A stretch of DNA of 39,002 nucleotides, from the NCBI GenBank assembly GCA_016937695.1, contig JAFGWC010000114.1, positions 1 to 39,002 of the forward strand, written 5' to 3'. Below the pieces are notes generated by a model. That model saw only the letters and a list, made by a program, of their open reading frames with translations. It made no database searches and had not been told where the DNA came from. Origin of the DNA: Bacteroidales bacterium. GTDB taxonomy: Bacteria; Bacteroidota; Bacteroidia; Bacteroidales; NBLH01. A program made the position numbers and the translations under genes. Positions 11,550 to 33,078 of the stretch are shown here, piece by piece; position 1 is the stretch's first letter; each line of letters starts with the position of its first letter.

Positions 11550-11712
11550 CATAGGAATAAAAAATAAAATTCTCTATTTTTATTGAAAAATTAAAATAAA
11601 TTATATATTATTGTACTTTAAGCATTTATAATTAACATTTGTATTATATTTATTAACATCTGTACTATGGCATGAAAATGGTAGTATAGTAAAAAAATTG
11701 AATTATAAGGGA

Positions 11713-12255
11713 ATGGACAAAGCCGAAAATGCTTACCAAATGTATAGTGATTATATAGATAGTACAATAATATCTTATAACGGGCCATTTGATGCACAAG
11801 TTTTATCTGTAATTGCTGAAAATATAGAATATTCGTTATCTAATAACCCAAGAGTTAGTAAAAAAATATTTAAAATATTTATAGAACTAGCACAAAATAT
11901 TTCTTATTACTCAGCAGAAAAACAGAAAAACGAAGAAGGCAACTTTTTTGGTTCGGGAATATTAATGTTAAGGGAAATGGTAGATCATTATAGTTTTTCC
12001 ACAGGCAATATTGTTGAAAAACATCAGGTTTTACCTGTTATACAGAAATGTGAAACAATAAATATGCTTGATAGAGAAAAACTAAGACAATATAAAAGAA
12101 AATTAAGGAATATGCCTTCCGGCACACCTGGTGGCGGTAATATTGGATTAGTACAAGTTGCACTTACAGCAGATTATCCATTAGAATATGAAGTTGTAAC
12201 TGTTGATGAATCTACATCATTTTATATTTTAAATGTTAGGGTAAATAAATCATAA
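11713..12255 (+). CDS. SiaB-like protein kinase, copy 1
   Basis: This 180-residue protein matches the SiaB family (DUF6272-type), small kinases related to GHKL ATPases that phosphorylate SiaC on a threonine. Visible motifs are an N-box-like IELAQN (E58, N62) in the helix FKIFIELAQNISYYSAEK, a FSTGN strand, and a glycine-rich GGGNIGLVQVAL near the C-terminus. I chose ATG 11713; a TTG five codons upstream (11698) is open but adds only MNYKG. It is 14 bp from the siaC-like gene at 12270, the gene pair typical of this system. The same pair follows directly at 12679-13634, with almost the same N-box sequence, so this is a tandem duplication. Kinase activity is inferred from family knowledge. Confidence 0.85.
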   Translation: MDKAENAYQMYSDYIDSTIISYNGPFDAQVLSVIAENIEYSLSNNPRVSKKIFKIFIELAQNISYYSAEKQKNEEGNFFGSGILMLREMVDHYSFSTGNIVEKHQVLPVIQKCETINMLDREKLRQYKRKLRNMPSGTPGGGNIGLVQVALTADYPLEYEVVTVDESTSFYILNVRVNKS

Positions 12256-12269
12256 TAACACAATAAATA

Positions 12270-12662
12270 ATGGAAAATATCTTAATTAAAGGCGACCATG
12301 GAACAAATTTTATTCCAACTGTTGATTTTAATGCAGAGACAGGAATTTGTGAATTAGGCGGTGAATCGTATTTAGAAGATACTATTGAATTTTACACTCC
12401 CTTATTTAAATGGCTGCAAGAATATATAGTAAATGTAAAAAAGCCAATAACATTTAATTTTAAATTAAGATATTTTAATACAAGCTCGTCAAAATGTATT
12501 ATTGACATTTTACATATTCTTCGAAAATATCAAGAAGAAGGTGGCGAAATTAAAGTAAATTGGTATTATGATTCTGAAGAAGAAGACATTGATGATGAAT
12601 TAGAAGAAATTGAAGATTTTATGGTTGAAACCAATCTCAAAATTAATCTACTTCCTAATTAG
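12270..12662 (+). CDS. SiaC-like regulatory phosphoprotein (DUF1987), copy 1
   Basis: This 130-residue protein matches SiaC/DUF1987, the switch protein of the Sia system. In Pseudomonas the unphosphorylated form binds and activates the diguanylate cyclase SiaD, and SiaB phosphorylates it on Thr68. Here the conserved strand is LRYFNTSSSK, placing the expected phospho-threonine at T71. Other landmarks are FNAETGICELGGESYLED (residues 20-37) and a FYTPLFKWL helix. The C-terminus is very acidic (SEEEDIDDELEEIED). It is 14 bp after its SiaB-like partner and 16 bp before copy 2 of the kinase, so all four genes are probably one transcript. What it binds is unknown, because no GGDEF protein is encoded nearby. 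Confidence 0.9.
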   Translation: MENILIKGDHGTNFIPTVDFNAETGICELGGESYLEDTIEFYTPLFKWLQEYIVNVKKPITFNFKLRYFNTSSSKCIIDILHILRKYQEEGGEIKVNWYYDSEEEDIDDELEEIEDFMVETNLKINLLPN

Positions 12663-12678
12663 TATTTAAAAATAAAGA

Positions 12679-13224
12679 ATGAATTATTCAAAACAAGTAA
12701 ATATTTTAGATTATCATAGCTCTTTTGATCAGGATACAAGAATATCTTATAAAGGCCCGATTGATGAAAAAATTCTTCAAGCAATTGGGACATATATTGA
12801 AGGTGTATTAAATAAAAATCAGAAAGCTAGTAAAAAAGTTTTTAAAATATTTATAGAATTAGCACAAAATATTTCTTATTATTCTGCTGAAAAAAATACA
12901 ATGAAAAATAATAAAGAAATAGGTGTTGGAATGGTTATTATAAGTGAAGCAGAAGATACATATAATTTTATGACCGGAAATTTGGTAAAAAATGATGATA
13001 TTGTGTCGATTATTGAAAAAAGTGAAATAATAAATTCATTAGATAGAGAAGAATTAAGAGAATATAAAAGAGAACAAAGAAAATTACCTCACAGTCAAAA
13101 AGGAGGTGCTAATATTGGATTAATTCAAGTAGCTTTAACATCAAGTCATCCACTTGATATTGAAGTAATACCTGTAGATGACGATCTTTCTTTTTTCTCT
13201 ATAGCTGTAAAAATTGATAAATAA
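12679..13224 (+). CDS. SiaB-like protein kinase, copy 2
   Basis: A 181-residue paralogue of the 11713 kinase. The N-box helix FKIFIELAQNISYYSAEK is identical to that of copy 1 (E60, N64), and the glycine box is GGANIGLIQVAL. The N-terminus and the loop after the N-box are more diverged (NTMKNNKEIGVGM against NEEGNFFGSG). An LDREELREYKR helix matches LDREKLRQYKR of copy 1. The start is ATG 12679, 16 bp after copy 1 of siaC. Close similarity with local divergence indicates duplication of a B-C pair followed by specialisation. Its likely substrate is the SiaC-like protein 26 bp downstream, although cross-talk between the copies is possible. Confidence 0.85.
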   Translation: MNYSKQVNILDYHSSFDQDTRISYKGPIDEKILQAIGTYIEGVLNKNQKASKKVFKIFIELAQNISYYSAEKNTMKNNKEIGVGMVIISEAEDTYNFMTGNLVKNDDIVSIIEKSEIINSLDREELREYKREQRKLPHSQKGGANIGLIQVALTSSHPLDIEVIPVDDDLSFFSIAVKIDK

Positions 13225-13250
13225 AAATAAATTTCAAATAACAAATAAGA

Positions 13251-13634
13251 ATGGAAAATCTTGAAATTGAAGGCTCTCACAAAAATTTCTTTATACCAAG
13301 TGTAAGTTTTAATGCTAAAACTGGTATTTGTGAACTATCCGGTGAATCTTTTCTTGAAGACACAGTGGAGTTTTATAAACCTTTAATAAATTGGGTTGAA
13401 GATTATATAGAATTGGTACATGGACCTCTTGCCTTAATTATTAGGTTAACTTACTTTAATACAAGTACTTCCAGAAGTATTTTAGATATTTTAAATATAC
13501 TTAAAGATTATGAAGAATCTGGAGGCGAAGTAGTAATTAACTGGCATTTTGATGAAAATGACATAGATATGGAAGAAGATATTGATGATTATATAATTGA
13601 TACGGGACTAGATATAAATAAAATTCCATTTTAA
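13251..13634 (+). CDS. SiaC-like regulatory phosphoprotein (DUF1987), copy 2
   Basis: A 127-residue SiaC/DUF1987 protein, paralogous to the 12270 gene. The expected phospho-threonine is T71 in LTYFNTSTSR. It shares the FNAKTGICELSGESFLED segment and FYKPLINWVEDY helix with copy 1, and ends in an acidic stretch (ENDIDMEEDIDD). It closes the tandem B-C-B-C cluster. A 205-bp AT-rich gap separates it from the P2 phosphatase gene on the same strand, which is the most natural candidate for its phosphatase. Confidence 0.9.
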   Translation: MENLEIEGSHKNFFIPSVSFNAKTGICELSGESFLEDTVEFYKPLINWVEDYIELVHGPLALIIRLTYFNTSTSRSILDILNILKDYEESGGEVVINWHFDENDIDMEEDIDDYIIDTGLDINKIPF

Positions 13635-13839
13635 TTTTTAAAATTCAAAAAGTTATTCCATTACTATTTATGTTTATTATTTTTATTTATCATTAACAAA
13701 TTATTTATTTAAAATTATCATTTGAGAATATTCACTTAAAAAAAATGTAAAATTTTATCTGCAAAAAATTTACGAATCAATTATTATTATTTATTTTCGT
13801 AGTTGTTATAATTATAAATCCCCTTGTTTGATAAAATTT

Positions 13840-16164
13840 ATGTTAAACCATATTATAAGATATCTATTTATACTGATTCCTGCTATTTTTATTAGTACTC
13901 TTTCATTCTCTCAAACGAAAGTAGACAGTTTACTTCAAATTGTTGAAAAAACCAAAATTGATTCTACAAAAGCAAATGCATTAACTGATTTATGTTGGGA
14001 ATTAAAATCCTCAGATCCTGAATTGGCATTAATATACGGAGAAAAAGCGTTAGCGATTTCAAAAAAAACAAACAACAATAAATTAGAAGCCAGAGCAATG
14101 AAGAATGTTGGTGTTATTCATTTGTTTTTAGGCAATTACGATAAATCAGAAGAGTTTTTTAATAAATCGCTAGAAAAATTTATAAAGCTGGAAAATAAAG
14201 CAGGAATGTCTGGTTGTTATAACAATTTAGGAATGGTGCTGGAATTAAAAGGGAATTTTAATTTGGCTAATGAGTTTTACCATAAATCTTTAAAAATAGA
14301 CGAAGAAACTAAAAATGAAAATGGGGTTGCAAACAGTTTAAATAATCTAGGTAATATATATCAAAAACAGGGAAATTATAAAATAGCCATAGAATATTAC
14401 ATCAAAGTTTTGGCTATACGAGAAAAGTTAGATGATAAAATTGGTGTTGCAGATTCTTATAATAACATTGGTTCTTTGTATGAAACTCAAAATGAATTAG
14501 AACAAGCAATATTGAATTATCAAAAAGCCTTAATTTTATATATTGAAAATCAGAATAAAAGAAAAACAGCAATAGTTCTAAATAATTTAGGACATATTTT
14601 AAGTTGTAAAAAACAATACTCAGAAGCCTTAGATTATTTTCTACAAGCACTTGAAATTAGAAAAGAATATGGCCAAAAGGAAGGTATTGCATCTACTTAC
14701 CAAAATATAGGTGAACTATATCAAGAATTAAACAGATATAAAGAAGCTTATGAATATTTTTCAAATAGTTTAGCAATTTTTAAAGAATTAAAAAACGAAT
14801 TTGGAATAAGTAAATTATATGTATCGATGGGTACTTATTATTTAAAAATAAAAAAATATGAAATAGCTATTGAGTATTTAGAAAAAGCAGTAGATTTATC
14901 GTTAAAGCTTAATTTTCTTGACAATTTAAAAGAAGCATATCATGAATTAAGTGTATGTTACTCAAAAACTAACAATTACACAAATGCATATAAGAACAGA
15001 TTATTATATGAAGAGATAAGAGATAGTTTAGAAAATAGTGAAAACAGTAAAAAAATTCTTCAAATTCAACTAAAATACGAATTTGAAAAAAACCAAAAAG
15101 AACTTGAATTTAAAAGAGAAAAACAAAAACTTGAAACAATAAAAGAAATAAACAAACAAAAATTAATTAACTATTTTTGGATAGTTGGTTTTCTATTTCT
15201 ATTATTGATTTTAGTCATTATTTACTTCAGCTATAAAAATAAAATATCAGCCAATCAAATTTTGCAATTACAAAAAGATGAAATTCAAGATAAAAACGAT
15301 CAATTAGAATTATATCACGAAGAATTGTTAAGTCAAAATGAAAATATTGAAATACAAAAAAATATTGTAACAAAACATCGAGACGAATTAGAAATACAAA
15401 CTCAGAAAATAACAGATAGTATTCAATACGCAAAAAGAATTCAAAATGCTTTATTACCATCTGAAAATCAAATAAATAACACATTTAAAAATAGTTTTAT
15501 AATTTATAAACCTAAAGATATTGTAAGCGGTGATTTTTATTGGTTTAGAAGTGACGATGATAATATTTATTTAGCTGTAGCAGATTGTACAGGTCATGGA
15601 GTTCCAGGAGCTTTTATGAGTTTACTCAGCATTTCTTATCTAAATGAAATAGTTGTTAAAAATTCAAAAATTGATGCTGCAGAAATACTAAATAAATTAC
15701 GCGATAAAGTAATAAATACACTAAATCATAACTCTGAAGATATTGAAACCAGAGACGGTTTAGATATTTCGTTGTGCATCATAAATAAAAATTCAAAAAC
15801 AATTCAATATGCCGGAGCATATAATTCTATATTTATAAAAGAAAAAAACAATCCTGCTTTAATTGAAATTAAAGGAGATAAAATGCCAATTGGAATGCAT
15901 TTTAAAGAAAATGAACCTTTTACAAACAAAATAATTCAATACACAAGCGATAGTCAGCTTTATTTGTTTACAGATGGTTACATAGATCAATTTGGTGGTG
16001 CATTTGGTAGAAAATTATTGATTAGCAACTTTAAAGAAATATTAAAAAAGTACAGCAACTTGGATTTAAAATCTCAAAAGAAAAAAATTGAAGAAGAATT
16101 TGAAAATTGGAAAGATACAAGACCTCAAATAGATGATATTTTAATAATGAGTTTTAAAATATAA
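13840..16164 (+). CDS. TPR-rich / transmembrane / SpoIIE-type PP2C serine phosphatase (P2)
   Basis: 774 residues from the ATG at 13840; a TTG four codons upstream is open but the ATG gives a proper signal peptide (MLNHIIRYLFILIPAIF, ends SFSQ). About eight TPR units occupy residues 45-395, several with the motif NNLGxxYxxxGNYxxAIEYY. A coiled coil leads to one membrane helix (about 446-464), then a second coiled coil and the linker DSIQYAKRIQNALLP. The PP2C domain has D565 in SGDFYWF, D582 in ADCTGHGVPGAF, RDGLD, TDGYIDQFGG and a closing DDILIMSF, so it looks catalytically intact. Directly downstream of the siaB/siaC tandem, it fits the role of SiaA, but with periplasmic TPRs in place of SiaA's sensor. 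The TPRs imply that it senses a protein. Confidence 0.93.
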   Translation: MLNHIIRYLFILIPAIFISTLSFSQTKVDSLLQIVEKTKIDSTKANALTDLCWELKSSDPELALIYGEKALAISKKTNNNKLEARAMKNVGVIHLFLGNYDKSEEFFNKSLEKFIKLENKAGMSGCYNNLGMVLELKGNFNLANEFYHKSLKIDEETKNENGVANSLNNLGNIYQKQGNYKIAIEYYIKVLAIREKLDDKIGVADSYNNIGSLYETQNELEQAILNYQKALILYIENQNKRKTAIVLNNLGHILSCKKQYSEALDYFLQALEIRKEYGQKEGIASTYQNIGELYQELNRYKEAYEYFSNSLAIFKELKNEFGISKLYVSMGTYYLKIKKYEIAIEYLEKAVDLSLKLNFLDNLKEAYHELSVCYSKTNNYTNAYKNRLLYEEIRDSLENSENSKKILQIQLKYEFEKNQKELEFKREKQKLETIKEINKQKLINYFWIVGFLFLLLILVIIYFSYKNKISANQILQLQKDEIQDKNDQLELYHEELLSQNENIEIQKNIVTKHRDELEIQTQKITDSIQYAKRIQNALLPSENQINNTFKNSFIIYKPKDIVSGDFYWFRSDDDNIYLAVADCTGHGVPGAFMSLLSISYLNEIVVKNSKIDAAEILNKLRDKVINTLNHNSEDIETRDGLDISLCIINKNSKTIQYAGAYNSIFIKEKNNPALIEIKGDKMPIGMHFKENEPFTNKIIQYTSDSQLYLFTDGYIDQFGGAFGRKLLISNFKEILKKYSNLDLKSQKKKIEEEFENWKDTRPQIDDILIMSFKI

Positions 16165-16208
16165 TCTTTGAAATGTATTTATAAGATAAATAAAAAAATA
16201 ATCAAATG

Positions 16209-16235
16209 GTATAAATATTGTGCTATAATTTATAC
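16209..16235 (+). terminator. Weak hairpin after the P2 phosphatase gene
   Basis: An 8-bp stem, GTATAAAT (16209-16216) with ATTTATAC (16228-16235) and an 11-nt loop, lies 45 nt past the P2 stop. It is all AT except for one pair and has no strong T-tract, so it may not terminate well. Confidence 0.25.
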
Positions 16236-16361
16236 TTAATTTTCAATAAAATCGATAAAAAGAAAAAGTTTTTATAAAAAAACAATAAAATTATAAATTA
16301 AAGTAATTTATTTAACACATTCAAAAAGCTACAACCAAAATTAATAAACAAACAATATTTA

Positions 16362-19300
16362 ATGAAAAAAATTATTTTTTTAATATTAATATTTTTTGCA
16401 TTACCTTGGATACTTATTGGGCGCGATATAAAAGAAATAAAAAAAAGCGGTAAAATATATGCCGCTTTTACAGAAAGCTCTTTAAAAAGTGTTAATTACA
16501 AACTTGCACTGGAATTTGCAAAATTTTTAAATGTAGAACTTGTAGTAGTTCCAACCACTTGGGAAGAAAATTTCTCATTAAATGGTAAAATTCCAAATAA
16601 TTATCAAACCAACCCAAATATATCATATACACCTGATGCACTAAAAAAAGCTGATTTTATTTGCGGCACAATTTATATACAAGAATGGAGAAAAAAATTC
16701 TTCAACTATGCCGGAATTTTAGATCTAAGTGATTTATTAATTATACCTAAAAATGCACAAAATTTAAAAACATACGATGATTTAAAAGGTTTAACAATTG
16801 CCTTTCTAGAAAATTCGAGTTACGAAAGTAACATAGAATCAATAAACAATAGAATTGGAGGAGGAATTAACTTTATAAGAACCCAATCAGAAGAAGAATC
16901 TGTAGAGTTATTAAAAAAAGGCAAAGTAGATGGTTTTATAACTGTTGCCTATAATGCTTTAGAAATAGTAAAAAACAGTACAAAATTTAAATTCGCATTT
17001 CCTGTAGCTCCAATTAAAAAAATTGGTTGGGCTGTTGAAAAAAGCAATAATGAACTTGAAGATGAGATAAATAATTTTTTTGAGACCATTAAAGGTAATG
17101 GAAAATTAGATGAATTATTTATATCGCATTATGGTATGGACTATAATTCTTATTTTGAGATACTTAACTCATATTCACAATCGCAAGACATCAGTACAAA
17201 TCAAAGAGATTTAGATGAAATTTTATCTTCTGGAAAAATCACTGTAGCATTAAGAGACAGGTTAATGGTTTACAGCAAAGATAAAAAACAATTCAATACA
17301 TATTTAGCAGAAGAATTTGCCAAATATATAGGTGTAAAACTAGAATTAAAATACACTCCATATTTTTCAAAATATTTTGACAATGAAAATGGCGAATTTC
17401 TGAAAGATAGCTCCTACACACCAGAATGGTTCAATTATTTTGATGTCGCTGCAGAAATTATGGTTCCGCTTGATTGGCGTTTGAAGAAAGTAAATATAAT
17501 TCCATTTATACCATATGCTCAAGTAGTAATTAGTAGAATTAACACCAATATCAGCTCAATTAATGATTTAAAAAAACTAAAAGGCGTAACATCTAAAGGC
17601 TCTGCTCAAGAAGATATATTGATTAATAACAATTTAAATAATTACTATTACGCCGAAGGAAACAATTTTTTAAAAGATATAAGTAGCGGAAAAGCAGACT
17701 ATGCAATTGGTAGCGATGCGGTATTCAGTATAAATAATTATGAAAATTTAGAAGCTAAATTTGTTATTGGTCAAGTAGGAAAAGATGGATGGGCAATTAA
17801 AAAGAATCAACCAAAACTAAGACGAAAAATTTTAGAATTTCTAGATTATGCAAAAAAAGAAGGCATTCTTGATAAGTATTTTAAAATTCAAACAGGAATG
17901 TCGTTAAGAGCGACAGAAAATTACCTGACAGTATTACAAGAAACATATCAACCAGGAATTTTTCCTTTCGTTTCTTATGGAACAAAAGAAGGTTTACCAC
18001 AAGAAGATATACTTTCAATTTATCAAGACAGAGATAATTACATGTGGTTTGGAACACATGCAGGAGCAGTAAAATACAATGGTCGCCAAATGAGAGTTTT
18101 TGACAAATCTAAAGGGCTTGCCAGTAATTCTGTTTTTGATATTGTTCAGGACAATGAAGGAACAATGTTTTTTGCTACATTAAAAGGCGCTTCGATATAC
18201 GAAGACGGTGAAATTACAAACATTTTTCCTGATTTATCGTTTAGAAAAATATATGTGGATTTTAAAAATAACAAATGGTTTTTTGGAGATAACGGAATAG
18301 CACTTTATAAATTCGACAGAGAAGAAAAATTTCTCAATAAAGAAAATCTTAATCTTCCACGAAAAGTTTATTCTATTTCCAGAGCAAACGATGGCGTTAC
18401 ATATTTAGCATCTAAAGAAGGACTTTTTTTATTTGATAATGAATTAAAAGTAACCCAAATTTCTGATGATGCTTGCTATTTTGTATTTATTGATGAAGAA
18501 AATCAACTTTGGATTTCAACTATTAATGGATTGTATGTGTTTAATTTAAACAATCTGAAAGTAGAAATAAAATTAGAAGAAAAAATTAACGAGCAATTAA
18601 ATTTACCTAAGAATACTATTATAAAATCAATAAAACAAACTTCTGATGGAACAATTTGGTTTATATCAGATTCAAAAATATTTCAACTAATAACACTTAT
18701 GCAAAAACCAATAGTATATGATGAAAATATTGGTTTAAAAAAACAAAGAATATTATCTTTTTTAGAAGATAAAGAAGAAAATCTTTGGATTGGCTATTCA
18801 GGTGGTATTCAAAAACTTACAAATAAAAGTTTGCGTTTATTATTTCCTAAAACAATAAATAATTATATAAACTCAATTACTGAAGACAAATTAGGAAGAA
18901 TGTGGATAAGTCAAAATAGTGATGTATTTATATTAAAAGATAAACTTGAAAATTTCACTCAATCATTTAGTGCAGATAACAAATCATATGTTGTTTCTAA
19001 ATTATCAAGCGGCAATATAATTATAGCAAGTACTGCAGGAATATATGAAATAGATATAAAACAACTTAAAATAATTAAAAAAAATATTTTTTCAAATCCA
19101 TTACATTTTTTAAATAATATATATATATCATCAAATGATGAAATATTTTTATTAACAGGCGAAAATGGAATTATTTATTATTTGAAAAACCTTAAATCGG
19201 AACCATTTGCATTATCAAATTTATCAACCACATTATTAATGCAATTAACTGAGTTTGATGATATGATTATTGGCGGAAATAACACCGGCTTAGTCTATTT

Positions 19301-21035
19301 TAATGGTAGCGATTTTGATCCACTAGTAAACGTTGGCGATATTGTTTGGTCTGTTTGCCCTGATAATGACATTCTTTGGGTTGGAACAGAAGGCGGATTA
19401 GGATATTTTAAAGATGATGAATATGTTGAAGTAAAAGTTAATTTACCAAATAATGTAATTAATGCTATAAAAAGAATTGATGACACATATTTATGGTTAG
19501 GAACAAACGGAGGATTTTTCTATTTTAACAAAAAAACCAATAAAATAGAGCTTTCAATCAACTCGAAAGATGGTTTGCAAGGAAATGAAATTGCAATAAA
19601 CGGATTATACTTAGATGAAAAAGGAATACTTTGGATAGGAACATATCATGGAATTTCAACTTTCGACATTAAAAAAAATAAACCTGTTAAATATACACCT
19701 GAAGGAAAAATCGAAAAGATTATTTTAAATGGCGAAGAAATTACTTTAGATCGCCTTCTTGAAGGATTAAAGTTTAATGAAAATAATTTAATTTTTGAAA
19801 TCACAGGATTATCATTTAAAGACGAGAAATCAATTGAATATGAGTTTTTTATGAAAGGTCTTGAAAATGATTATTCTGCTTCAAGAGGATACATATACAA
19901 GGCACAATATAACAATTTACCTCCAGGCAAATATCAATTTAATTATAGAACAAAAGGTAACGATGGAATTTGGAGCTATTATAAACAAATTGAATTTGTA
20001 ATTGCCAAACCAATTTGGGCAGAATGGTGGTTTAGAATAATTGCAGCAATTCTTATAACTATATTAATTTACGGATTTGTAAAGTGGCGCAACAGAGCTT
20101 TAGAAAAGCAAAACGAAGAACTTGAAAAATTAGTTAAATCAAGAACTGCTCAAATTTTTGAAAAAAATGAAGAACTTCAGCAACAAAAAGAAGAAATTCT
20201 AGCTCAAAGAGATGAAATTGAAAAACAAAGAGATACAGCAGAAAAACAAAGAGATGAAATAACATTTCAGAAAAAAGAAATTACCGATAGTATTTTATAT
20301 GCCAGCAGAATACAAAATGCATTGTTACCACCAAAAGAATATATAAGTAACTCATTTTCACAGCATTTCATTCTTTACCTCCCTCGCGATATAGTTAGCG
20401 GAGATTATTATTGGATGTATAGAAAAGATAATAAGGCTATTATTGTTGCAGCAGATTGCACTGGACATGGAGTTCCGGGCGCTTTTATGAGTATGTTAGG
20501 TTCAGCCTTTTTAAGTGAAATAACAACAAAACCGGGAATAATTCCTCCTGCACACGAAATCCTCAATGAGCTTAGAGCGCTAGTAATAAGCACATTACAC
20601 CAAACTGGTGGCGAAAATGAAACTAAAGATGGAATGGATATTGCTTTATGCGTTGTTGATTTTGATAATAATACACTTAACTATTCAGGCGCTTTTAATT
20701 CTTTATATCTAATAAGAAATAATGAATTTTTTGAATATAAAGCAGACAGAATGCCAATTGGTGTTTCCTTCAATCAAGATAAATCATTTACAAATCATAA
20801 AATAGATTTACAAAAAAATGATACTATGTATATTTTTTCTGATGGATTTATTGATCAATTTGGTGGAACTCTAGGTAAAAAATTTAAATCACGTCAATTT
20901 AAAAATCTAATTTTGAGCTTTCAGGATAAGTCTATGGAAGAACAAAAACAAATTTTACATAAAGAATTGCATGAATGGCGCGGAAAAATTGAACAAATAG
21001 ATGATATCCTTGTTGTTGGATTTAAGTATGACTAA
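16362..21035 (+). CDS. Giant sensor phosphatase: two solute-binding domains, beta-propeller, Y_Y_Y, SpoIIE-type PP2C (P3)
   Basis: This 1557-residue inner-membrane protein joins two sensing systems to a phosphatase. After a signal peptide (1-20) come two SBP_bac_3-type Venus-flytrap domains, at about 22-258 and 283-515. Each keeps an arginine at the usual ligand-carboxylate position: R110 in QEWRKK and R373 in DWRLKK. Residues about 535-1140 are Reg_prop propeller blades (MWFGTHAG, LWVGTEGG, LWLGTNGG, LWIGTYHG), then a Y_Y_Y domain (about 1146-1215), a membrane helix (about 1222-1242), a coiled coil and the linker DSILYASRIQNALLP. The PP2C domain keeps D1348 (SGDYYW), D1365 (ADCTGHG), KDGMD and SDGFIDQFGG. 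The front end resembles Bacteroidota hybrid two-component sensors and BvgS-type receptors, but the output is a phosphatase rather than a histidine kinase. Amino acids or related small molecules are plausible ligands. xseB follows after 11 bp. Confidence 0.92.
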   Translation: MKKIIFLILIFFALPWILIGRDIKEIKKSGKIYAAFTESSLKSVNYKLALEFAKFLNVELVVVPTTWEENFSLNGKIPNNYQTNPNISYTPDALKKADFICGTIYIQEWRKKFFNYAGILDLSDLLIIPKNAQNLKTYDDLKGLTIAFLENSSYESNIESINNRIGGGINFIRTQSEEESVELLKKGKVDGFITVAYNALEIVKNSTKFKFAFPVAPIKKIGWAVEKSNNELEDEINNFFETIKGNGKLDELFISHYGMDYNSYFEILNSYSQSQDISTNQRDLDEILSSGKITVALRDRLMVYSKDKKQFNTYLAEEFAKYIGVKLELKYTPYFSKYFDNENGEFLKDSSYTPEWFNYFDVAAEIMVPLDWRLKKVNIIPFIPYAQVVISRINTNISSINDLKKLKGVTSKGSAQEDILINNNLNNYYYAEGNNFLKDISSGKADYAIGSDAVFSINNYENLEAKFVIGQVGKDGWAIKKNQPKLRRKILEFLDYAKKEGILDKYFKIQTGMSLRATENYLTVLQETYQPGIFPFVSYGTKEGLPQEDILSIYQDRDNYMWFGTHAGAVKYNGRQMRVFDKSKGLASNSVFDIVQDNEGTMFFATLKGASIYEDGEITNIFPDLSFRKIYVDFKNNKWFFGDNGIALYKFDREEKFLNKENLNLPRKVYSISRANDGVTYLASKEGLFLFDNELKVTQISDDACYFVFIDEENQLWISTINGLYVFNLNNLKVEIKLEEKINEQLNLPKNTIIKSIKQTSDGTIWFISDSKIFQLITLMQKPIVYDENIGLKKQRILSFLEDKEENLWIGYSGGIQKLTNKSLRLLFPKTINNYINSITEDKLGRMWISQNSDVFILKDKLENFTQSFSADNKSYVVSKLSSGNIIIASTAGIYEIDIKQLKIIKKNIFSNPLHFLNNIYISSNDEIFLLTGENGIIYYLKNLKSEPFALSNLSTTLLMQLTEFDDMIIGGNNTGLVYFNGSDFDPLVNVGDIVWSVCPDNDILWVGTEGGLGYFKDDEYVEVKVNLPNNVINAIKRIDDTYLWLGTNGGFFYFNKKTNKIELSINSKDGLQGNEIAINGLYLDEKGILWIGTYHGISTFDIKKNKPVKYTPEGKIEKIILNGEEITLDRLLEGLKFNENNLIFEITGLSFKDEKSIEYEFFMKGLENDYSASRGYIYKAQYNNLPPGKYQFNYRTKGNDGIWSYYKQIEFVIAKPIWAEWWFRIIAAILITILIYGFVKWRNRALEKQNEELEKLVKSRTAQIFEKNEELQQQKEEILAQRDEIEKQRDTAEKQRDEITFQKKEITDSILYASRIQNALLPPKEYISNSFSQHFILYLPRDIVSGDYYWMYRKDNKAIIVAADCTGHGVPGAFMSMLGSAFLSEITTKPGIIPPAHEILNELRALVISTLHQTGGENETKDGMDIALCVVDFDNNTLNYSGAFNSLYLIRNNEFFEYKADRMPIGVSFNQDKSFTNHKIDLQKNDTMYIFSDGFIDQFGGTLGKKFKSRQFKNLILSFQDKSMEEQKQILHKELHEWRGKIEQIDDILVVGFKYD

Positions 21036-21046
21036 AAAATAATAAT

Positions 21047-21247
21047 ATGACAAAAAAGAATTTTTCTTATAAAAATGCAATTTCAGAAATTGAAGAAATA
21101 ATGGATAAATTAGAGAATAAAGAACTTGATTTAGATGAACTTTCTGAAAATGTAAAGAAAGCAAGTGAATTAATAAATAAATGTAAAGATAAATTACATA
21201 ATACAGAAAATGAAATTGACGAAATTTTAAACAAAATGCAAAGTTAA
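21047..21247 (+). CDS. xseB: Exodeoxyribonuclease VII small subunit
   Basis: This 66-residue, highly charged helical protein has the XseB pattern: FSYKNAISEIEEIMDKLEN near the N-terminus, then ELDLDELSENVKKASELI and a C-terminal helix with CKDKL. XseB binds the large subunit XseA to form exonuclease VII, which degrades single-stranded DNA. Length and motifs are normal. Its usual partner xseA is not in this window; the gene sits only 11 bp after the P3 phosphatase, so it may be co-transcribed with it, and it converges on the channel gene. Confidence 0.9.
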   Translation: MTKKNFSYKNAISEIEEIMDKLENKELDLDELSENVKKASELINKCKDKLHNTENEIDEILNKMQS

Positions 21248-21277
21248 AATTAAGTTAAATGGCATTTAATCAAATAG

Positions 21278-23293: not shown

Positions 23294-23317
23294 TTAAATC
23301 AATTTTAAAAAACACTT

Positions 23318-24844
23318 TTAATCTTTTGTTTCAATTAATTTTATTTCAATTTTCAATAGTTCTTTAAATCTTAGCGCAATCGAAACAATATCCTGATTAT
23401 CAACTTCATAATACCATTTTATTTTAACTTTAGAAAATTCAGATAATTGTTTTAATAATTCTAAAATATGATAAATTTGTTGCATAGATTGAGTATTGAT
23501 ATACTCTAATTTAAACTCAAAAATTGTAATTGAATTTGATTTTTTGATATACTCTTTAATCCATTCCTGTATTGGATGATAAAATTTATTTGCTTCGGCA
23601 GGAAAAGACCTTCCTTTTATGCAAAATTTATTTTCGGCAGGACTGAAATTTACATAAGGACTATCGCTTTTAGCTTCAATTATTAGAGGTGTTTGTTTAT
23701 AATAAATTTTTTTAATGTGTATTCTTAAAGTATAAAATGAAAATTTTTCGTCGGTTTTATAAAAATAGAATTCATTTTTCTGAGTACTTTTCAATCTAAT
23801 ATCAATTAAACCTAAACCGGTATTTGATTTATCTTTATTTCTCCCACTTTGAGCTAAAATTTTATTATACTCAGTATTCAATTCACTAACATTTAGCGAA
23901 TTGACATAATTCAAATGAGATTCCAGCTTTTTTACTTTCTCGTTTTTAATATAGTTTCCGGATGTTAGAATAAATTCATCATCATTTTCGGTAATGAAAA
24001 ATATTCCATAATTTCCACCAACATCATTAACTACATAATAATCAGAATGTTTTACAAGATTTTGTAACACTTCAACCATTATATTAAATGTTTTAATTTT
24101 TAATATAACAGTTCCTTTCATTTGTTTTTCAATTATTCCGAGAAGGTCTACTAAATTTTCCTGATTAAAAATTCCACTGTAATTTAATAGAATGTTTTCT
24201 TTATTTAAAGTATCGTGTAATTTTTCAATATTTTCTAATGAATTTTCACTATCTAAATTCTTTTCTTTAAATTCAATATCTTCAAATGGAATTTCAGTTA
24301 AAAGATAGAAATAATAATAATTATCAGTAATTTTTCTAAAATCATAGGATAATGTTCCTTTAGACTTTCTGGCAATTTCAATTAAACCAAGACCTGCGCC
24401 GCCTTTAATTGAAACACTCCCTTCTTTTAAATGTTTTTTATAAAAAAAGTCTAAATCATCTTTAGAAAGTTTATTTACATTTTCTAGTTGTTCCTTTAAA
24501 TCTTTAATATGGTCTTTGGCTATTAAATTGCCTGTTGTGATAAAATAGCTGTGAGATTTTCTTTGAAGAGCGAAAAAACCAGGTTTTACAGGAATATTTT
24601 CAGCAGTTATATCTTGATGCCTTGTAATATTTTGCAGGCCTTCCACCATAACAAAATATACTCTTTTTTTAATTTTCAGTTTCCTTTCAGTAAATTTAAG
24701 ACTTTGTTCGGCAAGTGATAATATATTATCTGTTATATCGGTATTAAATTTACCTCTATAAACATATTCCAAATTATCTTTTTGAGTATCTTTAAACAAG
24801 CTATATGCTAATTCAGACACATCCTTCCCTTTTTTATCTACCAC
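23318..24844 (-). CDS. SiaB-SiaB-SiaC fusion protein
   Basis: This 508-residue cytoplasmic protein joins three partner-switch domains. Domain 1 (about 20-190) is SiaB-like, with the N-box VEGLQN (E68, N72) and glycine box GGAGLGLIEIA (148-158). Domain 2 (about 205-380) is a second SiaB-like unit, with VEVLQN (E258, N262) and NTGLGLIDI (341-349). Domain 3 (about 385-508) is SiaC/DUF1987-like, with LEYINTQSM placing the expected phospho-threonine at T451. The middle of the SiaC-like core is kept (FCIKGRSFPAEANKFYHPIQEW), but the FNxxTG segment is altered and the acidic tail is missing. The start is GTG 24844: an in-frame stop lies three codons upstream and no ATG occurs near the N-terminus. The fusion shows that the B and C families act together, and could give self-phosphorylation. 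The channel gene follows 24 bp downstream on the same strand. Confidence 0.87.
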   Translation of the reverse strand: MVDKKGKDVSELAYSLFKDTQKDNLEYVYRGKFNTDITDNILSLAEQSLKFTERKLKIKKRVYFVMVEGLQNITRHQDITAENIPVKPGFFALQRKSHSYFITTGNLIAKDHIKDLKEQLENVNKLSKDDLDFFYKKHLKEGSVSIKGGAGLGLIEIARKSKGTLSYDFRKITDNYYYFYLLTEIPFEDIEFKEKNLDSENSLENIEKLHDTLNKENILLNYSGIFNQENLVDLLGIIEKQMKGTVILKIKTFNIMVEVLQNLVKHSDYYVVNDVGGNYGIFFITENDDEFILTSGNYIKNEKVKKLESHLNYVNSLNVSELNTEYNKILAQSGRNKDKSNTGLGLIDIRLKSTQKNEFYFYKTDEKFSFYTLRIHIKKIYYKQTPLIIEAKSDSPYVNFSPAENKFCIKGRSFPAEANKFYHPIQEWIKEYIKKSNSITIFEFKLEYINTQSMQQIYHILELLKQLSEFSKVKIKWYYEVDNQDIVSIALRFKELLKIEIKLIETKD

Positions 24845-25087
24845 TTCAGCTTAGTTTTTCTTAAATATACTTAATGTCAAGGAAATTTAAAAATAACATT
24901 TTATTTTTTATTAAAAAAAAATATAAATACTAAATTAACAAATAAATTTTGCAATAAAATTTTATAATATTAATTTTATATTGAAATTAGCACAAAATAA
25001 AGCTTTTATAATAAAACAAATAGTATTTCATTACAATAAAATTCCATTATTTTTTCAATTATTAATATTTAAAAATTGTTAAGTTTA

Positions 25088-27190: not shown

Positions 27191-27329
27191 AGATAAAAAA
27201 AAATTAAAACAACATTTAATTAAAACAATTTTAAAAGTGTATAATTTTAAAATATAAAAAATCGTTTAAAGTTATGATGGAATAATTTTTGCGGATAATT
27301 TATTAATTTACAAACTCAAATTAAAACAT

Positions 27330-27935: not shown

Positions 27936-27992
27936 GATTAAAATTTAGTTAAAATAACATCCTTAATTATAGATAATTACAAATAGATTTTG

Positions 27993-28000
27993 TAACTTTG
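27993..28000 (+). promoter_or_regulatory. Probable -7 element for the universal stress protein gene
   Basis: TAACTTTG is an exact match to TAnnTTTG, 36 nt before the ATG at 28037, with a following TTAGG. The -33 side is not clear. Confidence 0.45.
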
Positions 28001-28036
28001 TTAGGCAACCTTTTTTAGACACTAAAACGTATAACT

Positions 28037-28912: not shown

Positions 28913-28919
28913 AATCAGT

Positions 28920-28972
28920 TATTAATCATAAAAAAACCAAAATTTTAAATTTTGGTTTTTTTATGATTAATA
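28920..28972. terminator. Strong bidirectional terminator hairpin
   Basis: A perfect 25-bp stem (28920-28944 with 28948-28972) with a 3-nt loop. The outer part has ATTAATCAT pairing with ATGATTAAT, the inner part an A7 run opposite T7, so a U-tract is available on either strand. It sits exactly between the convergent stress-protein and P4 phosphatase genes. Confidence 0.9.
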
Positions 28973-28983
28973 CTTTATAATTA

Positions 28984-31803
28984 TCAAACTTCTATTGCCA
29001 TAAAAGTAATATCATCTCTTTGTTTTTCATCACCCTGATATTCTTGTAACGAATTTAATATTGCATTTTCTTGTTCATAAAGACTTTGATGTCCAACTTT
29101 TTTAAGCAACTCAATCAATCTCAAACTTCCAAATCTAATTCTTTCTGCAGATGATTGATCAATAATTCCATCAGTAGATAAATAGACTTTATCGCCATGA
29201 TTTAAACATACTTTATTATCTTCAAATACTTCTTTATTTCTTTTAGTTTGTGTACCACCAATTGTTTTTCTAGTTCCTTTAATATATTTCAGTTTTCTTT
29301 CTTCCTGACTGTAAAAATAAAGCGGTCTTTTTGCTCCTGCATATACTAGTTCAATTTTATTATTTTCTTGTTTTTCCAATTTAATTAAACAAACATCCAT
29401 TCCATCATTATTATCTGTCTGGTCCTGTCTTAAAATACTTTTGATTCCATTATTCATTAGATCTAGAATATTACTTGGCTCAACAACCTTTTTCTCATTA
29501 ACTATTTCGTTTAACAATCTGCTACCAATCATACTCATAAAAGCTCCTGGTACGCCATGTCCTGTACAATCAACAACAGCATAATAAAACTTTTCAGATA
29601 AACCTTCTTTAGCAGGTAATCTTGCAAACCAATAAAAATCACCTGATACTATATCTTTAGGTTTATAAATAACAAAGCCTTTAAATGCATCTTCCAAAAT
29701 ATTTTTAGGAGGAAGGATAGCAGATTGAATTGTTTTTGCATAAGAAATACTGGCAGTAATATTTTGATTTTGTAATTCAATTCTATCATTTTGATAAACA
29801 AGCTCCTCTTTTTGAGCCAATAACTCTTCACTTTGCTGTCTTATAGCTTGCTCTGCACGTTTTAGTTCGCTTATATCTGAAGAAATTGAAATTAAACTTT
29901 TAATATTATTTTCCTTATCAATAACAGGAGTTAGTGTTGTTTGAACCCAAACTTCTTTTCCACTTCTTGTAGTTTTTAATAAATCATATGTAACAGGAAT
30001 TTTTTCTTCAATACTTCTTTTTATAATTTCTTTAATATCATCATTAGTTTCGTTACTAATTAAATTTCTACTATACTCAGTAACTAATTGAGTAAAAGAA
30101 TATTCAAATAAACGAGAATAACCATCATTTATCCACTGATAATTTCCTGCTGCATCCATAATTGAAATAGCGTTATCTGTTTCAGATGCGACTAAAGAAA
30201 GCTTTTCAAGTTCTTTATTGGTAGCTTCTAATAAATGTGATTGTTCTAGAATTTTTTCGTGTTGTTTTCTAATTTCATTTTCGGCTTTCTTAATTCTACT
30301 AATATCAGTTTCAATAGTAATTAATTTCCTAATATTCCCTTCTTCACTAACAATAGGTGTTAAACTTGTTTGAACCCAAATATCATCACCAGTTCTTGTT
30401 TTATTTAAAGATTCATAAACTATAGATTTTTTTTCTCTTTTACATTTTTCAATAATATTTTCTATATCAGGGTTATTACTTGCACCAACAATATTATCAT
30501 CTAATTCATGAGTAAGTAATTGGAGAGTATAACCATACATTCTTGTAAAACCTACATTTACCCATTCAAAATTTCCATTTTCATCCATTATTGTAACAGC
30601 ATTTTCTGTTTTTGAAGCAACAATAGATAATTTTTCTAATTCAATATTTAGAATTTCTGTTTGTTTTTGCTGATTTTCAATTTCTTCTTTTTGCTTATAA
30701 ATTGCAATGTTTTTAGTTCTTAACTCATCGTTAATTTTTTTTCTTAAGCGGGAACTACGCCATGTAAAAAATGCAAGTACTAAAACTAAAACAGTTAAGG
30801 CAATAAAAATAAATAATATTGTACGTTGAAATTCTATCAATACGTTTTGTTCACCAATCGCAACATCTTTATTTTGAATTTCAGCTCTTGCTTTCTCTAA
30901 AATAGCAAGTTGAATTTTAGTTTCTTCATTTAATTTATTAACTTTATCTGTTTGCTCTTTAATTTTCCCTTCTTGATTTTCTAGTGTTTTATTGTTAAAT
31001 GCTAATTTTTCTTGTTGAATAGATAGATTATCTTGAATATCAGATAATTTTATTTCTTGAATAGCTAGTTCTTCTTTTTGGGCATCAATCTCATCTTTTT
31101 GCTTTTTATTAATTTCTTTTTGTTTTTCGTTTTCAAGTCTTTCCTTTTTATTGTCTTCTTTCAATCTCATTAATTCTCTAGTCTGCTGCTCTAGCTCAGC
31201 TCGCTGCATTTCTAGTTTTTCTTTTTCCTTTTTTAAAGCTTTCTCTGTAGCTGAATAAAGACCACGCAATTCAACCTCAGTACCACCATATTTTAAAAGT
31301 TCTTTTAAAAGTGTTATACCAGCCTCATTCGCATTACTTGTATTTAATTCAAATCTTTTTGTTCCTTCGTTTAACGGAAGTAAATTAATCATTATATATG
31401 ATTTATCTGGACATTGATCTGTAACAATAAGAGTATTTTTTGTCGTATTTTCAAAAATATTTTTTATTTCATCGTTATATGAATTTTCGACAAATAAAAT
31501 TTGTGTAGGTTGTATATCCTTGGTTTTTTTGAAATTGATAACAGAAAACGGTTTATTTTTAATCTTTCTTATTTTCGAAAGATTCTCAAATTCTTGAATT
31601 AAAAGTGTGTTAGATCCATAAATTCCAATAATGAATTTATCAATATTTTCTTCATTAGTCCATTCTACATTTGAAGCAAAGTTTTGCACAATCCAAATAG
31701 CTTTCTTTTTTTCTTCAGATTGAGAAAAGCTATTTTCGGTAGAAATAAAATTAATGAATAAAAATGCTACAAAAATTAAAATATTTCTTATAGTTCTGTA
31801 CAT
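28984..31803 (-). CDS. YfiR-like / PAS / PAS / SpoIIE-type PP2C serine phosphatase (P4)
   Basis: This 939-residue protein begins with a signal peptide (1-28, ends SFSQ). Residues about 31-170 match the YfiR/DUF4154 periplasmic domain (NFASNVEWT, FIIGIYG, ILFVENSYNDEI, INLLPLNEGTKRFEL). A long Glu/Lys coiled coil follows, then a membrane helix (328-350). Two PAS domains with PAC tails come next: about 390-505 (ENAVTIMDENGNFEWVN) and 535-650 (DNAISIMDAAGNYQWIN), each with WVQTxLTP. The linker ASISYAKTIQSAILP leads to a PP2C domain with D722 (SGDFYWF), VDCTGHGVPGAFMS, NDGMD, STDGIIDQSS and DDITFMAI, so it looks active. YfiR in Pseudomonas represses a diguanylate cyclase; here the same periplasmic module is joined to a phosphatase. 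The siaB/siaC pair at 32109-33078 lies upstream on the same strand. Confidence 0.9.
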   Translation of the reverse strand: MYRTIRNILIFVAFLFINFISTENSFSQSEEKKKAIWIVQNFASNVEWTNEENIDKFIIGIYGSNTLLIQEFENLSKIRKIKNKPFSVINFKKTKDIQPTQILFVENSYNDEIKNIFENTTKNTLIVTDQCPDKSYIMINLLPLNEGTKRFELNTSNANEAGITLLKELLKYGGTEVELRGLYSATEKALKKEKEKLEMQRAELEQQTRELMRLKEDNKKERLENEKQKEINKKQKDEIDAQKEELAIQEIKLSDIQDNLSIQQEKLAFNNKTLENQEGKIKEQTDKVNKLNEETKIQLAILEKARAEIQNKDVAIGEQNVLIEFQRTILFIFIALTVLVLVLAFFTWRSSRLRKKINDELRTKNIAIYKQKEEIENQQKQTEILNIELEKLSIVASKTENAVTIMDENGNFEWVNVGFTRMYGYTLQLLTHELDDNIVGASNNPDIENIIEKCKREKKSIVYESLNKTRTGDDIWVQTSLTPIVSEEGNIRKLITIETDISRIKKAENEIRKQHEKILEQSHLLEATNKELEKLSLVASETDNAISIMDAAGNYQWINDGYSRLFEYSFTQLVTEYSRNLISNETNDDIKEIIKRSIEEKIPVTYDLLKTTRSGKEVWVQTTLTPVIDKENNIKSLISISSDISELKRAEQAIRQQSEELLAQKEELVYQNDRIELQNQNITASISYAKTIQSAILPPKNILEDAFKGFVIYKPKDIVSGDFYWFARLPAKEGLSEKFYYAVVDCTGHGVPGAFMSMIGSRLLNEIVNEKKVVEPSNILDLMNNGIKSILRQDQTDNNDGMDVCLIKLEKQENNKIELVYAGAKRPLYFYSQEERKLKYIKGTRKTIGGTQTKRNKEVFEDNKVCLNHGDKVYLSTDGIIDQSSAERIRFGSLRLIELLKKVGHQSLYEQENAILNSLQEYQGDEKQRDDITFMAIEV

Positions 31804-32108
31804 TAGTAATAGAATATTTGACTAAAATGATATTTTTTTTTTTAATATCAAAATTAATTTACATTTATTTCTATTCTTATATAATAAAATTGTTGTCATT
31901 TATTAGATGAAATAACCAATATATTATCATTTTGATTATTGTCAAATTTTAGAATCATGACAATTTCATTATAATTTACAAAAGCAGTGCCATATTTAAA
32001 TTAAAAGTTAGGCTTTTTTTGTATGAAACTTTCAAAAAAAAATATTTTTTTGAAAGCATTAATTTTACTAATTAATATTAAAAGGTAGGTTAGTATTTAA
32101 AATATTAT
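31804..32108. other. Intergenic region, 305 bp
   Basis: AT-rich spacer between siaC copy 3 and P4, both minus strand. It contains the hairpin at 32029-32056. Near the P4 start no exact TAnnTTTG element was found. No gene was recognised. Confidence 0.4.
32029..32056 (-). terminator. Hairpin after siaC copy 3, possible terminator
   Basis: A 12-bp stem, CTTTC plus seven A (32029-32040) with seven T plus GAAAG (32045-32056), loop AATA. On the minus strand it follows the siaC-like gene by about 50 nt. The T-run is inside the stem rather than after it, so strength is uncertain. Confidence 0.4.
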
Positions 32109-32489
32109 TTAAATTTTAACTATATTTATTTTAAGTCCAGTAATAATCATGTAATCTTCAACATCTTCTTCAGTATCAGTATCTCCACTTTCAACATACC
32201 AATTTGCTTCAACTTCGCCTTCGTTATCCTGATATTCTTTTAATAAACGTAAAATATACAAAATATGTTTAGAAGAACTCGTGTTTACATAACTTAATTT
32301 AAAATCAAATTTTATAGGTTTCTTTGTTTTTATAAACTCAATAACCCAACCGGCAATTGGTTTATAAAATTGTGTAGCTTCTTCTAAATAAGATTCTCCG
32401 GAAATTTCACATAATCCGGTATTAGCATTCAAACTTACTTCTGGTTTAAATTGTATGCCGTTTTTTTCCTTTATTTCCAGATTTTCCAT
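32109..32489 (-). CDS. SiaC-like regulatory phosphoprotein (DUF1987), copy 3
   Basis: A 126-residue SiaC/DUF1987 protein. The start is ATG 32489; the TTG one codon earlier is less likely. The expected phospho-threonine is T70 in LSYVNTSSSK. The segments LNANTGLCEISGESYLEE and FYKPIAGWVIEF match copies 1 and 2, with an acidic loop SGDTDTEEDVED. It is 25 bp after its SiaB-like partner, in the same order as the other two pairs. P4 is the nearest phosphatase downstream. Confidence 0.9.
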   Translation of the reverse strand: MENLEIKEKNGIQFKPEVSLNANTGLCEISGESYLEEATQFYKPIAGWVIEFIKTKKPIKFDFKLSYVNTSSSKHILYILRLLKEYQDNEGEVEANWYVESGDTDTEEDVEDYMIITGLKINIVKI

Positions 32490-32514
32490 CAATTTTCAAA
32501 TAATAAATAATAAT

Positions 32515-33078
32515 CTACAATTCTTTAGCAACTTCAACCGAAATAATAACAAAAGAAGTTTTAGAGTCTATTGTTTTTGTTGTTATTTCAATTTTTTTTC
32601 CAGATGCAAGAGCTATTTTTACTAATCCAATACTGCTATCCTTCTCTGGTTCAGAAAATTCGTACTGTTTTCTTCTAAAAAGCCTCATCTTTTCTCTATC
32701 CAGTGTATTAATATATTCTATTTTACTATTTAATTTTTCAATATCTGAATTCAAGATAATATTTCCTGAAATAAAATAATAGCTTTCTATAGAATGCTTA
32801 ATTATGAACAAACCTGCTCCTGATTTTTCACCGTCTTGAGTTTTAATTTGTTCTACAGAAAAAAGTGAAATATTTTGAGCTAATTCGAGAAAAATCTTAA
32901 AAAATTTCCTCTTTAAAACAGAACTGTTATCAACAGAAGTCTCAATATTTTTAGCTAAGACAGAAAGAACATTTTTTTCAAACGTACCTCTGTAAGCTAT
33001 TAATACTTCTTTAGATAGCATTTCATAAAAATCTTCAAGAAATTCTATTTTTTGATTATCAACCTGTTCTTTGCTCAT
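32515..33078 (-). CDS. SiaB-like protein kinase, copy 3
   Basis: A 187-residue SiaB-family protein. The N-box is FLELAQN (E65, N69) in the helix FKIFLELAQNISLFSVEQ. The glycine-rich turn is reduced to DSSIGLVKIAL, lacking the double glycine of copies 1 and 2, which might affect nucleotide binding. An LDREKMRLFRRKQ helix matches the other copies. It is more diverged than copies 1 and 2 are from each other, so this pair is an older split. It forms a pair with the siaC-like gene 25 bp downstream, and lies 213 bp after aroE on the same strand. Confidence 0.83.
   Translation of the reverse strand: MSKEQVDNQKIEFLEDFYEMLSKEVLIAYRGTFEKNVLSVLAKNIETSVDNSSVLKRKFFKIFLELAQNISLFSVEQIKTQDGEKSGAGLFIIKHSIESYYFISGNIILNSDIEKLNSKIEYINTLDREKMRLFRRKQYEFSEPEKDSSIGLVKIALASGKKIEITTKTIDSKTSFVIISVEVAKEL

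Follow-up and report, generated by a model that had tools for sequence, protein, structure and literature searches.

A multiplied Sia-type partner-switching network, probably with exchanged outputs, in a Bacteroidales genome without GGDEF domains

Introduction

Partner switches of the RsbUVW and SpoIIAB-SpoIIAA-SpoIIE kind are built from a GHKL kinase, a STAS-like phosphoprotein and a PP2C phosphatase. In this article, we will focus on a cluster of genes of the Sia type carried by a stretch of 39,002 nucleotides from a Bacteroidales bacterium (assembly GCA_016937695.1, contig JAFGWC010000114.1). This stretch, hereafter the window, is one entire contig (C157) of a genome of 3.95 Mb that is 99.62% complete. 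The closest described system is the SiaABCD set of Pseudomonas aeruginosa, where SiaC docks onto the diguanylate cyclase SiaD at its stalk, a binding that is prevented when SiaB phosphorylates residue T68 of SiaC (PMC8457831, PMC7647112). In the sections of these two papers that were consulted, the sole role given to SiaC is the activation of a diguanylate cyclase (PMC7647112, PMC8457831), and DUF1987 proteins are suggested to commonly modulate adjacent proteins (PMC8457831). Variable outputs have already been proposed for partner switches of another phylum, the Campylobacterota, for whose PP2C/STAS-kinase/STAS modules it was predicted from gene neighbourhoods that they may drive enzymes of cyclic di-GMP (c-di-GMP) metabolism or a chemoreceptor; no ABC (ATP-binding cassette) exporter or channel is named in the sections consulted (PMC9239204).

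The genome that carries the window has in common with SiaABCD the PP2C phosphatase, the SiaB kinase and a SiaC with a conserved NTS phospho-site. Where Pseudomonas has one set, however, this genome holds 18 SiaC domains, 18 SiaB domains and 28 SpoIIE genes, together with tandem SiaB-SiaB proteins and SiaB-SiaB-SiaC (B-B-C) fusions, and it has no GGDEF output. The kinase-phosphoprotein-phosphatase logic is also that of RsbUVW and SpoIIAB-SpoIIAA-SpoIIE, whose kinase folds a modelled fusion protein matches weakly, but the kinase and substrate families are here SiaB and SiaC, and no sigma factor was recognised as an output among the neighbours read. We consider it likely that these genes form a multiplied Sia-type partner-switching network with exchanged outputs, the target in this lineage being something other than a diguanylate cyclase. 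The basis of this reading is domain identity, the catalytic and phospho-site residues, the absence of GGDEF, synteny, operon conservation, co-occurrence and the SiaC tree.

The Sia proteins of the window

The genes that the original prediction had placed in the window are all found there by profile searches: three pairs of SiaB and SiaC, a single SiaB-SiaB-SiaC fusion, and four PP2C phosphatases whose sensor parts differ. Two pairs follow one another on the forward strand: the SiaB-like GHKL kinase B1 (11698..12255, with a TTG start and an ATG at 11713; 130.7 bits against the NCBIfam model NF038262, "SiaB family protein kinase"), the SiaC-like phosphoprotein C1 (12270..12662; 137.9 bits against Pfam SiaC, PF09345; threonine in YFNTSSSK), then B2 (12679..13224; 149.9 bits) and C2 (13251..13634; 118.5 bits; threonine in YFNTSTSR). 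The third pair lies on the reverse strand and comprises C3 (32109..32492; 115.7 bits; threonine in YVNTSSSK) and B3 (32515..33078; 106.5 bits), whose G-box is eroded (-DSSIGL). The fusion, of 508 amino acids, is also on the reverse strand (23318..24844) and is matched by two DUF6272 stretches (PF19788) and one SiaC (PF09345).

The free SiaB-like genes, which match DUF6272 as well, reach 106-150 bits for an NF038262 cut-off of 85, which is exceeded by all four SiaB genes of the window, and the free SiaC genes reach 116-138 bits for a cut-off of 24.5, which is passed by all four SiaC domains; no B or C match in the window has a Pfam E-value worse than 6e-27. The stricter equivalog cut-offs, made for Pseudomonas, are not reached (SiaA 164-202 bits for 700, SiaB 41-94 for 225, SiaC 64-89 for 150). 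One window protein of each family was compared in sequence with the solved structures, and phmmer related C1 to SiaC of 6k4f (E=1.9e-15) and also of 6kko, and B2 to SiaB 6kko_A (E=2e-16). Judged by these matches, the window proteins are true SiaB and SiaC relatives.

The residues on which the switch would depend are kept. At the column of T68, a threonine is found in the four SiaCs of the window, all of which also keep N67; across the 18 SiaC domains of the genome, this position is a threonine in 13 and a serine in 5. In a wider set, serine replaces threonine in 22 of 141 domains, 16 of these 22 being among the SiaCs classed as orphans. On the kinase side, the catalytic Glu and Asn of the N-box are kept in all 18 SiaB domains of the genome. 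B1 combines them with a G-box reading GGGNIGL; in tandem SiaB-SiaB proteins, the second B has an altered glycine box. One of the alignments, A4, misplaces the N-termini of the SiaCs. The phospho-threonine site, whose lack in the C proteins would have spoken against the original prediction, is thus present; as to the kinase fold, the SiaB genes match their family and keep both residues, and the model of the fusion matches the SiaB of 6kko.

The four phosphatases all carry a SpoIIE domain over the Pfam cut-off, together with sensor parts that differ as announced. The one at 4539..6491 (reverse strand, 650 amino acids; SpoIIE 56.5 bits) has few TPRs (TPR_12 twice), and it reaches 164 bits against the SiaA-like model NF038263, under the cut-off of 700. 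The one at 13828..16164 (forward strand, with an ATG at 13840; 778 amino acids) has many TPRs (TPR_12 six times). The third, at 16362..21035 (forward strand, 1557 amino acids), combines a solute-binding-like part (SBP_bac_3) with a Reg_prop propeller and Y_Y_Y, and the last, at 28984..31803 (reverse strand, 939 amino acids), a YfiR/HmsC-like DUF4154 with two PAS_9. The metal motifs of PP2C, DxxG(H/K)G and DD, are kept in all 27 of the 28 genes of the genome that were aligned, including the phosphatase at 4539 (28 aligned rows are 27 genes, one of them present twice, and L046 was left out).

A genome-wide network without a GGDEF domain

The window is one corner of a larger Sia network that extends over the genome. 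In the census given above, 29 SpoIIE rows correspond to 28 genes, two rows on contig C4 being one gene, and some of these SpoIIE proteins may lie outside the Sia network. The original prediction had tentatively regarded the four phosphatases as acting on the four SiaC units of the window. Such a self-contained four-by-four network is not supported: the genome as a whole counts 28 SpoIIE genes and 18 SiaC domains, the phosphatase at 4539 was not found beside the cluster in the stretches examined of G006, a genome of the same genus, and the free and fused SiaCs fall on opposite sides of a well-supported tree split. One-to-one pairing of phosphatases and SiaCs is likewise unsupported.

No GGDEF domain was found in this nearly complete genome by a search that was positive in 8 of 14 control genomes. 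The known target of SiaC, a diguanylate cyclase, is thus missing, and the Pseudomonas output cannot apply. The multiplication itself is shared by the genus, six genomes of which have 9-23 SiaC domains each. In the order, SiaC is present in 20 of 41 genomes (2-23 copies) and found in none of the other 21, and the SpoIIE count follows, with 4-65 per genome with SiaC versus 0-2 without; G001, among these 41, has two GGDEF fragments.

Two observations concern the surroundings of other SiaB and SiaC genes of this genome. On contig C41, a second YfiR-PAS-PAS-SpoIIE phosphatase (L084:6114-8864, reverse strand) lies about 1.7 kb from a SiaC/SiaB-SiaB pair. The left end of the window (1-87) has 87 exact bases in common with contig C89, on which a truncated surface-protein-like open reading frame (ORF, 3-2678 in the window) continues, and a SiaB-SiaB protein of C89 starts 3.2 kb from the end that this contig shares with the window.

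A predicted exporter that accompanies SiaC

On contig C60 of the same genome (locus L075), a SiaA-type phosphatase gene (A), B and C are followed by a gene that we call T, encoding a protein of 1041 amino acids of TerB-ABC-ABC2 architecture, and then by a putative lipoprotein and a small putative secreted protein, both named from their N-terminal sequences as no family was found for them. On contig C77, a T paralog faces a B-C pair. Both layouts, the same-strand operon and the convergent pair, recur across families. Among the 41 relatives, the distribution of T coincides with that of SiaC: T was found in all 20 that have SiaC and in none of the 21 that do not (E up to 1e-60, best 19 candidates per genome scored). 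In a sample of 148 genomes of the phylum, where the best 5 candidates per genome were scored, 8 have SiaC and 4 have a full-length T, all four with SiaC, while the match in G180 is partial. The adjacency of SiaC and T was confirmed in G085, G089 and G186, three genomes in which no GGDEF was found. The four other SiaC genomes of the sample belong to other classes; no T was found in them, and they have 8, 8, 9 and 1 GGDEF domains.

A search blind to SiaC gave the same picture. Named genomes were searched with nothing but the N-terminal part of T as query, and the best 80 of 521 confirmed stretches were considered, a set that is biased toward the operon-type T because the first row of the query is of that type, and that includes genomes already compared (L194, L195, L196 and L262 are DNA of G002, G001, G006 and G013). 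Four stretches (L200, L253, L257 and L269) begin at most 250 bases from T and cannot be judged. Among the 76 others, SiaC is found directly upstream of T, on the same strand, in 72, including L211, where T was initially unlabelled, and L199, where T is split. The loci with both genes come from Bacteroidales, Salinivirgaceae, Flavobacteriales, Cytophagales, Flammeovirgaceae and Cyclobacteriaceae, from records labelled Chlorobi or Chlorobiota, and from a cultured species, Fulvivirga lutimaris KCTC 42720 (L270), whereas the sole Chitinophagales locus (L238) has T without SiaC. Separately, L231 (9384-13063, forward strand) carries an A-B-T operon with an intact SiaB and an intact T, but no SiaC was detected in it. 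The A-B-C-T operon of Bacteroidota, of which that of F. lutimaris is an example, uses the same A, B and C families as the window; the operon itself lies outside the window, and its SiaC is separated by the tree split from the free SiaCs of the window.

By its fold, T is an ABCG-type transporter, and export is predicted. ABC_tran and ABC2_membrane are over the Pfam cut-off in all six T proteins scanned; the TerB-like N-terminal part is over it in L075, L186, L194 and L270, and is not listed for L074 and L185. The T of L194, which is that of G002 and is 76% identical to the T of the window's genome, was modelled with a mean predicted local distance difference test score (pLDDT) of 81.9. Foldseek and VIA-align match this model to ABCG-type transporters, with Z of about 25-31 over about 490-560 residues in the region of residues about 243-1013; these matches mostly omit the N-terminal 240 residues, the VIA-align rows covering residues 245-1012, so that no family is excluded for the N-terminal part. 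As in ABCG2, ABCG5/G8 and ABCG25, the ATPase precedes the membrane domain. T differs from them by its TerB-like N-terminal part, by a very weak FHA-like segment and by a long helical insert ahead of its final membrane helix.

FHA domains bind phosphothreonine. The segment in question (residues about 190-235, alignment A5) gave a weak match to a PDB profile, the FHA of MEK1, at E=0.055, and Pfam gave nothing consistent over 18 members; with this single match, an FHA domain is not claimed. As for the link between an exporter and SiaB or SiaC, no report was found in the literature searched, which leaves out most subscription journals.

Two lineages of SiaC

The SiaC tree (IQ-TREE, 50 chosen rows, midpoint-rooted, with the fused window SiaC and Pseudomonas SiaC on long branches) separates two groups. 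The three free SiaCs of the window (12270, 13251 and 32109) group with Pseudomonas SiaC and with the SiaCs of G119, G149, G165 and G173 (support 100/99), while the T-linked SiaCs, the SiaB-SiaB-linked SiaCs and the fused SiaC of the window lie on the other side of the split. A FastTree tree (141 rows, few columns) agrees in placing the free window SiaCs with the SiaCs linked to diguanylate cyclases or histidine kinases (support 96). It differs in bringing the SiaCs of convergent T loci nearer to that clade than those of operons.

In Pseudomonas, SiaC contacts SiaD through D29 and Y31, according to the sections consulted of PMC8457831. At these positions, the free SiaCs of the window have E and then Y or F, and the fused SiaC has R and F; in 28 SiaCs of T operons, the first is R (25) or K (3) and the second L (28), and 14 SiaCs of convergent T loci have R and I. 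This pattern fits a changed partner for the T-linked SiaCs and the same kind of partner for the free SiaCs of the window.

Some SiaCs of the Pseudomonas-like group come from other classes of the phylum. In G165 and G173, whose loci have the A-B-C order and a related SiaC, a GGDEF gene comes directly after SiaC, unlike in the genome of the window. In G119 (L174:10091-11155, forward strand), the gene after SiaC encodes a histidine kinase (HisKA, HATPase_c) which shares the N-terminal stalk of these cyclases, and this suggests that the SiaC-binding stalk is a portable adaptor. G149 has neither a GGDEF gene nor a histidine kinase after SiaC. A strict motif of this stalk matched only its three source proteins when sought in T and in the neighbour genes examined. 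Among the matches listed for a stalk profile, the others were weak (E 0.056 and worse) and mostly fell in coiled-coil parts of phosphatases; no sequence-level alignment of the stalk with the solved SiaD was obtained.

The fusion and the neighbouring channel

The B-B-C fusion of the window is not alone in the genome, since a second one and tandem SiaB-SiaB proteins occur on other contigs; a scan of genome contigs with the fusion protein as query found no relative. Its AlphaFold model has a mean pLDDT of 78.4 and a predicted template modelling score (pTM) of 0.45, which led us to leave the arrangement of its domains uninterpreted. With this model, Foldseek gave SiaB and SiaC of 6kko/6k4f as best matches, followed weakly by folds of the SpoIIAB and RsbW type.

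Twenty-four bp downstream of the fusion starts a gene (21278..23293, reverse strand; Ion_trans_2, Pentapeptide_3) for a pentapeptide-repeat protein with a C-terminal ion channel, in whose sequence a potassium-channel-like TIGYGD filter can be read and which is a candidate output. The two genes also adjoin each other in G006 and in a second genome of the genus, G002. A second case of a channel gene adjoining a Sia gene was noticed on contig C118 (L088:7135-8305, forward strand), where the gene for the mechanosensitive channel MscL is followed, after 118 bp and on the same strand, by a lone SiaB.

Conservation of the cluster

The clustered, multi-sensor layout that had been put forward for the window is real, and it is mostly kept in G006, where contigs C103 (at its end) and C7 (at its start) have 141 exact bases in common. 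Their combined order is TypA, B-C-B-C, the TPR phosphatase, the propeller phosphatase, a small ORF and the channel, then the B-B-C fusion, two genes, the YfiR-PAS phosphatase, C-B and the next three genes. In the window, the corresponding arrangement extends from the TypA gene (9315) to a TPR gene (35176), and the G006 proteins are 49-85% identical to those of the window: B1 is at 85% and the propeller phosphatase at 74%, the TPR phosphatase (13828) occupies the same position after B-C-B-C, and the small ORF of 66 amino acids between the propeller phosphatase and the channel (21047..21247, forward strand) has a counterpart that is 67% identical at the same place. A polyphosphate kinase gene, which stands in the window between the fusion and the YfiR-PAS phosphatase (25076-27190), is absent from the syntenic place in the G006 stretches examined. 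Other relatives keep partial stretches, namely the channel, fusion, YfiR-PAS phosphatase, C and B in G002, and B-C-B-C in G004 and G005. When the 19 B/C loci and 28 phosphatase genes of the genome were scattered at random, a 39-kb stretch holding no fewer than 3 of the former and 4 of the latter arose in a fraction of 0.0001 of 20,000 runs, a figure that is too favourable since operon partners are not independent.

Proposed mechanism and alternatives

We propose that the PP2C phosphatases would sense different signals through their TPR, solute-binding-plus-propeller or YfiR-plus-PAS parts and would strip the phosphate from the conserved threonine of SiaC, that the SiaB kinases would put it back, and that unphosphorylated SiaC would bind and switch its target. 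In the A-B-C-T operon and the facing B-C/T locus of this genome, SiaC would most likely target the adjacent exporter T. For the three free SiaCs of the window, which are of the Pseudomonas-like lineage and retain the residues of its interface, the target is probably a stalk-bearing protein encoded elsewhere, and the fused SiaC possibly acts on the adjacent potassium-channel-like protein. Phosphorylation, dephosphorylation, each binding step, the signals, the transport and the physiological output are what we infer here. A wider formulation would make of SiaA-B-C a general threonine-phosphate switch with exchangeable outputs, which would directly gate an ABCG-type exporter in Bacteroidota, drive a histidine kinase with the stalk of the cyclases in another lineage and, through the fusion of the window, gate a pentapeptide-repeat potassium channel, so that the phosphatases would control export and ion flux and not c-di-GMP. 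We regard this wider formulation as possible, if on balance doubtful.

Several points weigh against the network with exchanged outputs. T carries no recognisable stalk motif of the cyclase and histidine kinase outputs, so that SiaC would have to bind it at another site, and a search of 672,038 bases of the window's genome (about 17% of it, with about 18 kb of contig C107 counted twice) gave no stalk-bearing target. For 9 of the 18 SiaC domains, the two closest genes on either side include neither SiaB nor T, and two of the four T copies of the genome (on C124 and C107) lack an adjacent SiaC, as do L231, L238, L256 and L258. The co-occurrence counts of SiaC and T ignore kinship and only score the best 19 or best 5 candidates per genome. 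Finally, the G-box of B3 is eroded, and the adjacency of channel and fusion is seen in just 3 genomes, all of one genus.

Some of these points would also be expected if T were not the direct target of SiaC but a co-transcribed exporter, whose substrate or partner lipoprotein would feed the sensor phosphatase, the target of SiaC being an unlinked protein. The lack of a SiaC-binding stalk like that of the cyclases in T, the T copies away from SiaC, the A-B-T locus L231 that does without a detectable SiaC, and the putative lipoprotein and small putative secreted protein of the operon all speak for this possibility; however, T adjoins SiaC in two different layouts, its presence or absence agrees with that of SiaC in 41 of 41 genomes, and the T-linked SiaCs differ precisely at the known partner-contact positions, which makes us hold it rather unlikely. 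A more ordinary situation, that of insulated paralogous SiaABC sets with conventional targets whose clustering reflects chance or a recent tandem expansion with no shared function, would account for the B-C-B-C order, which resembles a tandem duplication, and for the dispersion of SiaB and SiaC genes over 16 other loci of the genome. This ordinary situation appears quite improbable to us, as the arrangement from TypA to the TPR gene, polyphosphate kinase apart, has persisted in synteny at 49-85% identity in G006, and as the genome has no conventional diguanylate cyclase target. A role of the SiaCs resembling that of the anti-anti-sigma factor in RsbUVW, directed at an anti-sigma/sigma pair, is suggested by the STAS-like structure of SiaC (in the sections consulted of PMC8457831) and by the weak matches of the fusion model to SpoIIAB and RsbW folds. 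This is nevertheless very improbable, because SiaB matches here the SiaB family, and because no sigma or anti-sigma gene was recognised beside the B-C loci of the genome (from translations read by eye and domain scans of some neighbours), save for a sigma-factor-like ORF (L084, 2905-3459) which does not adjoin SiaC.

Concluding remarks

The A-B-C-T operon agrees with the idea that these proteins modulate adjacent ones, and it adds to it a different and widely conserved candidate output. With 18 SiaC domains and no GGDEF in one genome, the activation of cyclases cannot be the general rule for SiaC, and the A-B-C-exporter operon offers a concrete alternative target, found, among the best 80 of 521 stretches, at 72 loci of named genomes, which include at least one from a cultured species. 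Through this operon, the role of the many SpoIIE phosphatases of Bacteroidota becomes directly testable, and the swap of an output behind an unchanged phospho-switch would constitute a clean case for the study of how partner specificity evolves.

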